In this document: positions 3,604 through 8,601 of the stretch, in pieces
How positions within the stretch are numbered: the first letter of the stretch is position 1
Layout: each line of letters starts with the position of its first letter
Assembly (NCBI GenBank): GCA_903843125.1
Contig: CAIMOR010000132.1
Coordinates: 1 to 34,583 of the forward strand
Origin: an uncultured Rhodospirillales bacterium
GTDB taxonomy: Bacteria > Pseudomonadota > Alphaproteobacteria > Acetobacterales > Acetobacteraceae
Length of the DNA stretch: 34,583 nucleotides
Direction of reading: 5' to 3'
Notes under the pieces: generated by a model
The model's input: the letters and a program-made list of their open reading frames with translations, nothing else
What the model was told of the DNA's origin: nothing
The model's database searches: none
Position numbers and translations under genes: made by a program

Positions 3604-4383
3604 CTAGCGGGCGGTGAACTGGGTCTTGCCAAACATGTTTTCGCGTTCTTCCGGCGTCATGGTGCCGCGCCGCTGGTTCTCGGACAGCACTTCCACGCCC
3701 CGCTGCACGGCGGGCCGTGCGGCGATGGCATCATGCCAACGCTTGACGTTGGGGTAATGCGCCAGATCAATTCCCCGACGATCCGCATTCCGCACCCACG
3801 GGAAGGTGCAGATGTCGGCGATGGTATAGGCCTCGCCGGCCAGGTAGGGCGCCTCGCCGAGCCGCTTTTCCAGCACGCGGTGCAGCCGGGCGACCTCGTT
3901 GGTGTAGCGCTCGATCGCGTAGGGCAGCTTCTCGGTCGCGTAGTTGGCAAAGTGGTTGTACTGGCCGAACATCGGCCCGACGCCGCCCATCTGGAACATC
4001 ACCCATTGCAGGCAGGTGTAGCGCGCCACCGGCTCCTGCGGCAGCAGGTCCGAGCCGGTCTTCTCCGCCAGGTAGATCAGGATGGCGGCGCTCTCGAACA
4101 GCTTCAGCGGCTGGCCGCCGGGGCCGTCGGGGTCGATGATGGCGGGGATGCGGTGGTTCGGCGTTATCGCCAGGAACTCGGGCTTGAACTGCTCGCCCTT
4201 GCCGATGGCGACCGGCACCACCGTGTAGGGCAGGCCGAGCTCCTCCAGCATGATGTGGACCTTGTGGCCGTTCGGTGTCGGCCAGGTCCAGGCTTCGATA
4301 GGCTTGCGCCCCTCCGGGGGGACGGGCTTGCGCCCCTCCGGGGCGACGGGCTTGCGCCCCTCCGGGGCGACGGGCTGCGGCAT
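3604..4383 (-). CDS. Glutathione S-transferase, YfcG/YghU-like, with repeat N-terminus
   Basis: The 259-residue cytosolic protein has a thioredoxin-fold N-domain from about residue 28. It contains TPNGHKV (the Thr-Pro-Asn active-site region of YfcG-type enzymes), an IPAI cis-proline loop and the glutathione-binding FESAAIL. An all-helical C-domain follows, including LQWVMFQMGGVGPMFGQ and the YTIADI motif. YfcG-type proteins act as glutathione-dependent disulfide reductases, so a role in thiol redox or detoxification is inferred. Ahead of the domain lies an unusual extension of near-identical VAPEGRKP octapeptides encoded by three 24-bp tandem repeats. AGGAG eight bases upstream of the ATG at 4383, and the absence of another usable start before the fold, indicate that the repeats are translated. 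Confidence 0.9.
   Translation of the reverse strand: MPQPVAPEGRKPVAPEGRKPVPPEGRKPIEAWTWPTPNGHKVHIMLEELGLPYTVVPVAIGKGEQFKPEFLAITPNHRIPAIIDPDGPGGQPLKLFESAAILIYLAEKTGSDLLPQEPVARYTCLQWVMFQMGGVGPMFGQYNHFANYATEKLPYAIERYTNEVARLHRVLEKRLGEAPYLAGEAYTIADICTFPWVRNADRRGIDLAHYPNVKRWHDAIAARPAVQRGVEVLSENQRRGTMTPEERENMFGKTQFTAR
4301..4372 (-). repeat. Three 24-bp tandem repeats coding V-A/P-P-E-G-R-K-P
   Basis: Units lie at 4301-4324, 4325-4348 and 4349-4372. The last two are identical and the first differs at one base inside the unit, giving PPEGRKP instead of APEGRKP. Each coding-strand unit contains CCCCGGAGGGG and a GGCGCAAGCC palindrome, so the mRNA could fold just downstream of the start codon. The 24-base period keeps the reading frame whatever the copy number. 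Confidence 0.95.
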
Positions 4384-4451: not shown

Positions 4452-4748
4452 TCAGAACCGGAACGTCGCCGAGATCAGGCCGCGATGGGAGGCGCCGCTC
4501 TTGGCGGATTCGGTCGTGGCGCTGCCGGGCGTGGGCCGCAGCAGGCTGCGCGTGGTGCCGAGATATTCGATGCCGACATCGACGCGGGGCACCGGGCTCC
4601 ACACCAGGTTGATGACGCCCTGGCCGATGTCGCGGTTCAGCAGGCCCGCGCCGGCGGCGGCGAAGCTGCGGGCATAGGACGGGTAGGACAGCGAGGCCCA
4701 GCCGATGGTGGCGTTGCTGCGGATGGTCGGCGCCCAATAGTGGGTCTA
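4452..4748 (-). pseudogene. C-terminal barrel segment of the porin, beyond an in-frame TAG
   Basis: Reading the minus strand in the same frame past the TAG at 4746-4748 gives 97 further residues before TGA at 4452-4454. They begin THYWAPTIRSNATIGW and include RSFAAAGAGLLNRDIGQG, NLVWSPVPRVDVGIEY and the ending GLISATFRF. These are amphipathic beta-strand-like segments with the terminal aromatic residue (Phe) recognised by the outer-membrane BAM machinery. There is no frameshift, no second stop and no start codon with a ribosome binding site, so this is the missing end of the upstream porin rather than a separate gene. The simplest ancestral codon is Tyr (TAC or TAT) giving GYTHYW, but Trp, Gln and others are one change away. 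A sequencing error, a recent nonsense mutation or suppression could each explain it. Confidence 0.85.
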
Positions 4749-6068
4749 GCCCAGCAGCGCCGCCACCATCGGCACCTCGTTGATGCGCACCTGCGTGGTG
4801 CCGATGCCGGTGAGGCCGGCATTGGTCACCGCGCCCTGGCCGTTCGCGGTGCTGTCCAGGTAGCGGCCGACGCCCTGGCCGTAGACGAAGCGCAGGAAGG
4901 CGCGGTCGCGCTCGAACAGCCGGGCCATCGCCGCGACCTGGAAGCCCCAGCCGGTGGTGGACTGGTGGTAGCGCAGCGCCGGGTTGGTGTCGCCGACATT
5001 GGTCAGCTCCATGCTCGGCCGCAGCAGGCCGGTCAGCGCCACGCTGCCGACCTTCTCGTCCTGCCAGTGCAGCCGGGCGAGGAAGTCGGGCGTGCGGTCG
5101 ATGGTCAGCGGCGGGGCGGTGCCCGTATCCACATCGGCGTAGCGCACGCCGCCGCTGCTGGTCAGGTCGGTGTAGGGCTGCTCGACGCTGCCGGCCAGGC
5201 TCAGCCCATGCCCGAAGCTGTGGGTGTAGCGGAACTGCGCCTGGCGCACGTTGGAGGTGGCGAAGGGCGTCGCGTAGTCCAGCCGCTGGGGGTAGTTCTC
5301 GTCATAGAACAGCGACCAGTTCTGCCCGGCCAGGAACGGCCCCAGCTCGCCATAGGCCAGGCGCAGGCGCGGGATGTAGCTGTTGGTGCTGGCCTGGGAT
5401 TGCAGCGATGCCGTGCTCTGGCTGCCGGCGAAATCCATCTCCAGCACCGTACGCAGCCGGCCCCAATCCGTGTCGCTGACGGTCTCCAGCCCCAGGCGGG
5501 AGCGGCGGCCGCTGAACAGCAGCTCGCCACCCTGGCGGGAGGCGGCGCTGGGACTGAGCGGAATGCCCTGCGCGGTGACCGCGTCCGAGCGGTTCCGCGG
5601 CCCGCCGTCCCGCGTCATGATGCCGACCGCGAAGCCGTAGAGCCGCACCGCGGTGTTGCTGCCGGGCACGCCGATGAAGCCGGGCAGCGTGCCGAGCGTC
5701 GCCGCCTGTTCCGGCGGCTGCTGCGACCCCTGGGACGGCACCGGGCCCGCATTGGCCGGCGCCGCAGCGGTGGCGTTGGCGGTGCCGGGCGGCGTGCCTG
5801 GCCGGGCCGGCGGCAGCGGTGTGGCCTGCTGCGGCAGCGGGCGGATTCCGGCCTGCGGCTGCGGCGTGGCGGCGTTGGGGGCCGGTGCGGCTGCCGCGGC
5901 CGGCACGAGTTGGCGCTGGCGCGCTTCCAACGCGTCCAGCCGCCGCTGCAACTGCTGCATCTGCCGGCGCAGTTCGCGCACCGTTTCCGCATCCGACTGG
6001 GCCAGTGCCGGCCCGGCCGTGACGAAACCCAGGGCCAAGGCCGCCGGAAGGATATACGTCCGCTGCAT
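4746..6068 (-). CDS. DcaP-like trimeric outer-membrane porin, truncated by amber codon
   Basis: From the ATG at 6068 the protein has a signal peptide (MQRTYILPAALALGF... with ALA before Q24). A short coiled coil follows (about 28-55, ETVRELRRQMQQLQRRLDAL), then a Pro/Ala/Gln-rich linker to about 135 and a beta-barrel starting near VRLYGFAVG. Barrel features include RRSRLGLET, LEMDFAGSQ and LRLAYGELGPFLAGQNWSLF, typical of the DcaP-like porins that take up small anionic compounds. GGAG six bases before 6068 favours this ATG over the one at 6083. As read, the protein stops after 440 residues at TAG 4746-4748, lacking the last strands and C-terminal Phe. Such a product would be expected to misfold and be degraded. 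It is probably monocistronic. Confidence 0.88.
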   Translation of the reverse strand: MQRTYILPAALALGFVTAGPALAQSDAETVRELRRQMQQLQRRLDALEARQRQLVPAAAAAPAPNAATPQPQAGIRPLPQQATPLPPARPGTPPGTANATAAAPANAGPVPSQGSQQPPEQAATLGTLPGFIGVPGSNTAVRLYGFAVGIMTRDGGPRNRSDAVTAQGIPLSPSAASRQGGELLFSGRRSRLGLETVSDTDWGRLRTVLEMDFAGSQSTASLQSQASTNSYIPRLRLAYGELGPFLAGQNWSLFYDENYPQRLDYATPFATSNVRQAQFRYTHSFGHGLSLAGSVEQPYTDLTSSGGVRYADVDTGTAPPLTIDRTPDFLARLHWQDEKVGSVALTGLLRPSMELTNVGDTNPALRYHQSTTGWGFQVAAMARLFERDRAFLRFVYGQGVGRYLDSTANGQGAVTNAGLTGIGTTQVRINEVPMVAALLG

Positions 6069-6135
6069 GGGATTCTCCGCCATGGACCCGTGCTGGGTCG
6101 CTGGGGCTATCCGACACAGCCGGCAGCGGGCGGAT

Positions 6136-6188: not shown

Positions 6189-7373
6189 TCAGGCATTGCC
6201 ATTCAGCCAGTCCATCGCCTTCTGCACGCCGCCCGGGGTGATCGGCACGCCGGCGGCGCGCAGCCCCATCTCCACGCCGCTCAGCGCACCGACCAGGTGC
6301 AGGTCGCCGATGTCGCCGAGGTGGCCGATGCGGAACACCCGGTCGTTCAGCTGGCCGAGGCCGTTGCCCAGGCTCATGTTGAACTTCTCCAGGATGGTGG
6401 CGCGCAGCGCGTTGGCGCTGTGGCCCTCGGGCAGGCGTACCGCGGTCAGCACGCTGGAATAGTGCCGCGGCTCGACGCATTGCACCTCCAGCCCCCAGTG
6501 CCGCACCGCGCGGCGGGTCGCCTCGGCCAGGCGGTCGTGCCGGGCGAAGACGTTGTCGAGGCCTTCCTCCAGCAGCATGTCGACGGCCGCGTCCAGCCCG
6601 TACAGCAGGTTGGTGGCGGGGGTGGAGGGGAAGAAGCCGGTGGCGTTGCTGGCCAGCATCGGCCGCCAGTCCCAGTAGCTGCGCGGCAGCTTCGCGTTCT
6701 CGGCCGCCTTCAGCGCCTTCGGGCTGACCGCGTTGAAGCTGAGGCCTGGCGGCAGCATCAGGCCCTTCTGGCTGCCGCTGACGGTGACATCCACGCCCCA
6801 TTCGTCGTGCCGGTAGTCGATGCTGCCCAGGCCGCTGATGGTGTCCACCAGCAGCAGCGCCGGGTGGCCGGCGGCGTCGATGGCGCGGCGGACCTCATCG
6901 ATGCGCGAAGTCGCACCGGTGCTGGTCTCGTTGTGGACCACGGCGACGACCTTGATCTCGTGCGCCTTGTCGTCGCGCAGGCGCTGCTCGATGGCGGCGA
7001 CATCGGCGCCGCGGCGCCAGTCGGTCCTGATGAGTTCCGGCTTCAGCGTCAGCCGCTCGGCCATTTCCTGCCACAGATGGGCGAACCAGCCGGTCTCGCA
7101 CATCAGCACGCGGTCGCCGGGGGAGCAGGTGTTGCTCAGCGCGGCCTCCCAGGCGCCGGTGCCGCTGGCGGGGTAGATCACCACCGGGCCGGCGGTGCGG
7201 AACACCAGGCGGATCTTTTCCAGCAGCTGCTTGCCCAGCTTGCCGAAATCCGGCCCGCGATGGTCCATGGTCGGGTTGTCCATGGCGCGCAGCACGCGGT
7301 CCGGCACGTTGCTCGGCCCTGGAATCTGCAGGAAGTGGCGGCCCGAGACAGGCTTGGACTGGTAGTAGGCCAT
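6189..7373 (-). CDS. sgaA: Class V aminotransferase, serine--glyoxylate type
   Basis: This 394-residue cytosolic PLP enzyme belongs to the alanine/serine-glyoxylate aminotransferase family. Visible features are IPGPSNVP near the N-terminus, the phosphate-binding ASGTGAWEAAL (69-79), HNETSTG (147-153), D177 in LLVDTISGLGS contacting the PLP ring nitrogen, and the Schiff-base lysine K203 in SGSQKGLMLPPGL. The C-terminal domain has LGNGLGQLNDRVFRIGHLGD, close to serine-glyoxylate enzymes of the serine cycle. The likely reaction is serine plus glyoxylate to hydroxypyruvate plus glycine. No other serine-cycle gene (hpr, glyA, mtk) is in the window, so a role in photorespiration-like glyoxylate disposal is equally possible. 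A purine-rich stretch (GGGGGGAAAA) precedes the ATG. The LuxR-type gene lies 77 bases upstream on the same strand. Confidence 0.88.
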   Translation of the reverse strand: MAYYQSKPVSGRHFLQIPGPSNVPDRVLRAMDNPTMDHRGPDFGKLGKQLLEKIRLVFRTAGPVVIYPASGTGAWEAALSNTCSPGDRVLMCETGWFAHLWQEMAERLTLKPELIRTDWRRGADVAAIEQRLRDDKAHEIKVVAVVHNETSTGATSRIDEVRRAIDAAGHPALLLVDTISGLGSIDYRHDEWGVDVTVSGSQKGLMLPPGLSFNAVSPKALKAAENAKLPRSYWDWRPMLASNATGFFPSTPATNLLYGLDAAVDMLLEEGLDNVFARHDRLAEATRRAVRHWGLEVQCVEPRHYSSVLTAVRLPEGHSANALRATILEKFNMSLGNGLGQLNDRVFRIGHLGDIGDLHLVGALSGVEMGLRAAGVPITPGGVQKAMDWLNGNA

Positions 7374-8256: not shown

Positions 8257-8601
8257 ATGGCCAACCAGCATTCCGGCAGCGGCAACAGCAACCCCGGCAA
8301 CTTCGCCAACGACCCGAAGAAGGCGAGCGAGGCCGGGCATGTCGGCGGCACCCACCAGGGCAAGGAAAACAACCCCGGCAACTTCGCCAATGACCGCCAG
8401 AAGGCCAGCGAGGCCGGCCACGCCGGCGGCACGCACCAGGGCAAGGAAAACAATCCGGCGAACTTCGCCAACGACCGCCAGAAGGCCAGCGAAGCCGGGA
8501 ACACCGGTGGCCAGCACAGCGGCGGCAACTTCGCCAACGACCGCGAGAAGGCCAGCGAGGCCGGGCGCAAGGGCGGCCAGTCCAGCCGCAGCAAGGACTG
8601 A
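8257..8601 (+). CDS. KGG-repeat general stress protein (GsiB/con-10-like)
   Basis: The 114-residue, highly hydrophilic protein consists of four repeats of N-x-x-NFAND-x-x-KASEAG-x-x-GG at residues 12-38, 39-65, 66-88 and 89-110. The ends are short MANQHSGSGNS and SRSKD tails. It has no hydrophobic core, cysteine or signal peptide and is probably intrinsically disordered. The KASEAGxxGG unit is the 'stress-induced KGG' motif of B. subtilis GsiB and fungal con-10, linked to desiccation and general stress. AGGAG at 8242-8246, ten bases before the ATG, sets the start. A strong intrinsic terminator follows 25 bases after the stop, so it is probably monocistronic. I looked for a sigma-EcfG promoter (GGAAC...CGTT) upstream and found no convincing one. 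Confidence 0.88.
   Translation: MANQHSGSGNSNPGNFANDPKKASEAGHVGGTHQGKENNPGNFANDRQKASEAGHAGGTHQGKENNPANFANDRQKASEAGNTGGQHSGGNFANDREKASEAGRKGGQSSRSKD
8290..8586 (+). repeat. Four tandem coding repeats of the KGG protein
   Basis: Units are 8290-8370 and 8371-8451 (81 bp each), 8452-8520 (69 bp) and 8521-8586 (66 bp). The first three are close at DNA level while the last is shorter and more diverged, suggesting growth by duplication within the gene. Confidence 0.9.

Follow-up and report, generated by a model that had tools for sequence, protein, structure and literature searches.

Porins of the DcaP type, represented by the Pfam family PF19577 and by the solved DcaP-like protein 6eus, are described in a preprint as trimeric 16-stranded barrels with an N-terminal coiled coil, and the same preprint reports carboxylate uptake for the Acinetobacter proteins DcaP3 and DcaP4 (PMC12338516). 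The final strand of an outer-membrane barrel carries a beta-signal that engages BAM, and internal strands hold further signals (PMC10945584). Interruption of bacterial genes by in-frame stop codons has likewise been described: Belinky et al. 2021 (PMC7918605) report many such stops in genes with dN/dS below 1, for which readthrough is suggested, though they also report fairly high dN/dS and stops that are mostly short-lived. For instance, in a study of Shigella (PMC11327459) two genes carrying nonsense mutations still gave full-length protein, and readthrough is mentioned there among the possible explanations.

Here we consider a DcaP-type porin gene with one amber codon inside its frame. The sequence analysed, called the window below, is the whole of contig C132 (34,583 bases) from a 5.56-Mb draft genome that is 98% complete and in 572 contigs. 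Like the described DcaP porins, the frame matches the family over both the head and the tail of the barrel, has an aromatic C-terminal end and, by eye, a coiled-coil-like N-terminus; unlike them, it contains a stop and a long proline/alanine-rich linker. In our judgement the single-copy gene is probably a young pseudogene, the outcome of an ordinary recent nonsense mutation at a loss-prone locus.

Results

A porin frame interrupted by one amber codon

From an ATG at 6083 on the minus strand, 445 codons run to a TAG at 4746-4748, behind which the same frame continues for 97 sense codons, the last of them spelling GLISATFRF, to a TGA at 4452-4454 (Table 1). Translation thus confirms what a preliminary description of this DNA had reported, a porin frame split at this amber codon with 97 further codons and the same C-terminal end, and bears out its statement that nothing else in the gene is damaged, as there is no second internal stop in the frame 4452-6083. 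The ATG at 6068 (MQRTYILPAALALGFVTAGPALAQ, by eye resembling a signal peptide) is as good a start, and would make the N-terminus five residues shorter with the signal-like stretch placed first; the start at 6068 given earlier is therefore acceptable, but the 543 codons counted with it run from 6083. With either start, the predicted product should have 440-445 residues and lack the last 97 together with the C-terminal strand.

Table 1. Features of the porin locus in the window
Feature	Position	Strand	Basis
Whole DcaP-type porin frame, one interruption	4452..6083	-	Translation, Pfam, 6eus match; alternative start 6068
Part before the stop	4749..6083	-	By eye: signal sequence, coiled-coil-like N-terminal stretch, proline/alanine-rich linker, first part of barrel domain
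In-frame TAG stop codon	4746..4748	-	Translation; sense residue in 13/13 aligned relatives
97-codon tail, homologous to the final portion of the barrel, aromatic C-terminus TFRF	4455..4745	-	Homology
Glutathione S-transferase (GST) family gene, downstream neighbour, ends in TAG	3604..4383	-	Domain match; orthologue in G005 ends at the same place
Class-V aminotransferase, upstream neighbour	6189..7373	-	Domain match; orthologues flank empty sites and an intact porin

The tail is unlikely to be translated separately, as its sole in-frame ATG, GTG or TTG codons are the GTGs at codons 494 and 498, roughly halfway along. We looked for a repeat tract around the TAG and none is present, which leaves the earlier suggestion of phase-like expression unsupported.

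Homology of the frame behind the stop

In DNA of 70% GC long open frames behind stops are common by chance, so that the openness of the tail is weak evidence when taken alone. Shuffling the bases left 1023 of 5000 tails free of stops, and at least 97 open codons follow the gene's own stop in 9 of 27 other gene frames of the window (the 28 frames used for comparison were hand-picked from the window's list of open reading frames). We count the tail as real on account of its homology, and on this ground reject a chance open frame, though openness itself is at chance level. The Pfam DcaP family (PF19577, curated cut-off 27 bits) matches residues 144-512 of the read-through frame, spanning the stop, with 49.8 bits, compared to 34.5 bits without the tail, and the second of two stretches matching 6eus (residues 376-512; E 6.8e-11) also spans it. 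The DcaP-like identity proposed earlier is upheld by both matches, and their reach into the tail agrees with the claim that a C-terminal part is missing from the product. Additionally, the tail resembles the head in codon usage, with a mean log-likelihood per codon in frame of -3.47 compared to -3.48, where the five other reading frames give -4.01 to -4.86. An NCBIfam search with the porin gave no match, and structure prediction, from an alignment of two sequences only, gave a mean pLDDT of 34.4, too low for the model to be of use.

A second Pfam family, Porin_2 (PF02530, curated cut-off 22 bits), matches with 41.4 bits with the tail and 40.8 without it. The truncated product thus scores above the cut-off and above its own DcaP score, but the match stops at residue 430, before the stop codon, and so excludes the tail, and the read-through frame fits DcaP better. 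Both cut-offs are passed by the truncated product as well as by the read-through frame, which might suggest that the shortened protein functions as it stands, the more so as internal strands can hold assembly signals too. We consider this extremely improbable, given that the beta-signal engaging BAM sits on the final strand (both points from PMC10945584) and that 11 of 12 relatives run to the C-terminal end.

Relatives across the stop position

The first alignment holds 12 relatives, five of which are paralogues from one genome (G042); among the 17 loci scanned, those that matched weakly or only in part (L007, L008, L009, L010 and L012) were left out of it, and L016 was left unscanned. The window protein is about 28-44% identical to these 12. 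All but one reach a common C-terminal end, the twelfth (L006) being truncated where its locus stops. The possibility that homologues normally end where the window's product does, which the preliminary description had named as a reason to dismiss the downstream frame, does not hold for these relatives. At columns conserved to at least 70% among the 11 relatives other than L006, the window protein carries the conserved residue at 59 of 69 head positions and at 14 of 17 tail positions.

A DcaP match was found in 22 of 120 sampled genomes of the family, the window's own genome counted. The best is in G139, a member of another genus, whose protein of 577 residues has no stop and is 69% identical over 480 residues (query 64-543). 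With G139 added, all 13 relatives that were aligned carry a sense residue where the window has its stop. The other matches in this sample are all free of internal stops, though some fall short of this position. A pattern scan of genome contigs confirmed 1 relative out of 78 pattern matches, and a plasmid search returned 14 records, all below 60% identity. The porin's own genome holds no second DcaP match; it also encodes a porin of another family, PF13609 (contig C30), with no internal stop.

The DcaP relative in one further genome of the sample, G142, shows a frame change between query residues 457 and 459 (about 2908-2911 of locus L104), approximately 12 residues beyond the position of the window's stop. 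This may reflect damage to another copy in the family sample, or else a mistake in the draft assembly of G142.

Constraint on either side of the stop

When the barrel head (residues 139-445) and the tail (447-543) are compared with G139, the two are alike: amino-acid identity is 225 of 307 in the head and 69 of 97 in the tail (Fisher p=0.70), and dN/dS is 0.408 and 0.421, respectively. Polarising the changes with six outgroups, drawn from the 12 relatives, assigns 29 to the window lineage and 25 to G139 in the head and 13 and 7 in the tail; with two outgroups the counts are 18 and 13, and 8 and 8. The excess of 13 over 7 leans towards relaxation of the tail on the window lineage, though it is not significant (p=0.26). 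In a simple neutrality simulation assuming equal branch lengths, the chance of a tail pN so low is 0.038 with neutrality of the tail over half the window's branch and 0.003 with neutrality over 80% of it, and under this model neutrality for more than about half of the branch is unlikely. An old, decayed pseudogene does not fit, as constraint is not clearly relaxed behind the stop. The like constraint and the simulation together leave three possibilities for the stop: a recent origin, an artefact, or readthrough.

That the stop is not real, the true genome having an amino-acid codon there and an ordinary intact porin, is the main rival to a recent mutation. One wrong base is enough in a draft of 572 contigs, the frame is undamaged apart from the TAG, and clear decay behind it is absent. 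Still, false stops are not common in this assembly: among the matches to TctC and to ABC transporters listed for this genome, 150 of each (scored from 263 and 227 candidates, respectively), none has a stop within the matched stretch, though this control is one-sided, being restricted to the matched stretches of families that are likely kept intact, and cannot clear one base. On balance we regard an error of sequencing or assembly as rather unlikely, though a serious contender, and infer that the base is real in the organism.

Decoding of the amber codon

The resemblance in constraint between tail and head also fits readthrough, by which the TAG, decoded by a near-cognate or suppressor tRNA, would give a little full-length porin, at low expression, and the tail would be kept under selection. 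The genes of Belinky et al. (PMC7918605) and of the Shigella study provide precedents, and the window shares with the former a dN/dS below 1 on either side of the stop, but the average constraint across the whole branch can be explained without readthrough, and the stops reported by Belinky et al. are, as noted, mostly short-lived. The window's stop, moreover, is unlike theirs in being absent from every relative aligned; conservation of the stop, as expected of programmed readthrough or recoding, is thus not seen. No amber-reading anticodon is found among the 43 tRNA hits of the genome, an incomplete set in which no tRNA is named Ile, and the suppressed expression considered in the preliminary description accordingly finds no support; 42 of the 43 were named by ARAGORN, and the last, cut by a contig end, carries TTG by eye.

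TAG also serves as an ordinary terminator next door, where it ends the GST-family gene at the same place as the G005 orthologue ends. The 28 gene frames picked in the window stop with TGA (22), TAG (4) or TAA (2), and reassignment of the stop codon is rejected on the ground that ordinary genes here end with TAG. We therefore hold readthrough to be improbable, and a variant of it, in which the amber is a standing, tolerated brake with slight readthrough setting the channel very low and selection keeping the tail, to be more improbable still.

The locus in related genomes

No porin match was found in any of five other genomes of the genus, two of which are drafts 85% and 89% complete, and a dramatic loss is for this reason less plausible. 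The GST gene and the aminotransferase are adjacent in G003 and G005, with no porin between them. G001 has a match to no more than a short piece of the GST gene, followed at a distance of about 50 bases or less by the aminotransferase, which means that the missing DNA extends beyond the porin. The flank matches in G002 and G004 are more distant (best-scoring 67% and 66% identity) and uninformative on the locus. The porin is thus absent at this locus in at least three of five congeners (G003, G005 and G001).

A different picture emerges for G139, where the intact porin lies beside the orthologous aminotransferase, and where genes assigned by eye as response-regulator/GGDEF-like and VOC-like occur together with the aminotransferase in the same order, on one strand, as in the window. 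An NCBIfam search with the VOC-like protein gave no match, and the 14 kb covered at the G139 locus contain no match to the GST gene. The shared neighbours argue for common ancestry of the two porins, although divergence between the window and G139 is greater in the porin (63.5% identity) than in the aminotransferase (84%). A recent horizontal gain, which the porin-free loci had suggested, is opposed by the G139 orthologue at the same aminotransferase and by the unremarkable GC content, both short of decisive, and independent gains in the window genome and G139 could also have occurred. As we read the order of gain and loss from these loci, the simplest history would be an old porin locus that was lost repeatedly.

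In the window, a 24-bp unit repeated 3.2 times with 98% matches (4301-4376) adds PVAPEGRK/PVPPEGRK copies to the start of the GST-family protein, which has a short, unlike N-terminal stretch in G005 and none in G003 (by eye). The VOC-like gene beside the intact G139 porin (about 5830-6010 of locus L103) starts with tandem nine-residue units ETRLRRDG(S/L), by eye a 27-bp repeat, and so is another array near a porin. Elsewhere in the window, a frame at 8390-8601 has recurring FANDRQKASEAGHAGG-like motifs, which we take to resemble KGG stress-induced repeats.

Discussion

Among the three readings offered in the preliminary description, a recent nonsense mutation fits best, and phase variation and suppression lack support. 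The gene resembles known nonsense-interrupted genes and young pseudogenes in having a single stop that is premature relative to its orthologues, a homologous frame behind it, an intact orthologue elsewhere and no counterpart in close relatives, and we found no feature that sets it apart from them. As a counterpoint, the lack of clear decay in the tail is also expected under a base error or efficient readthrough.

The course of events under a recent mutation would be as follows. One recent substitution would have created the amber codon, so that translation ends after 440-445 residues and the last 97 are lost, among them the final, aromatic-ended strand, which bears the main BAM assembly signal. 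As this strand bears the signal engaging BAM, the product should assemble poorly; we infer that it would fail to assemble and be degraded, leaving the gene a young pseudogene.

By analogy with the Acinetobacter proteins, the intact porin would be predicted to act in carboxylate uptake. The genome whose only DcaP match is interrupted also holds a large set of likely parts for carboxylate uptake, with at least 150 matches to the TctC family of tricarboxylate-type binding proteins and no stop inside those listed.

In kind, this looks like nothing new, but like a commonplace case of a gene lost recently, or else like an error of sequencing. The case is useful as a note for annotation, in that an open frame behind a stop in DNA of 70% GC means little until homology backs it. 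If the base is real, the locus would offer a snapshot of porin loss, with the gene intact in one genus, freshly interrupted here and absent from three congeners.
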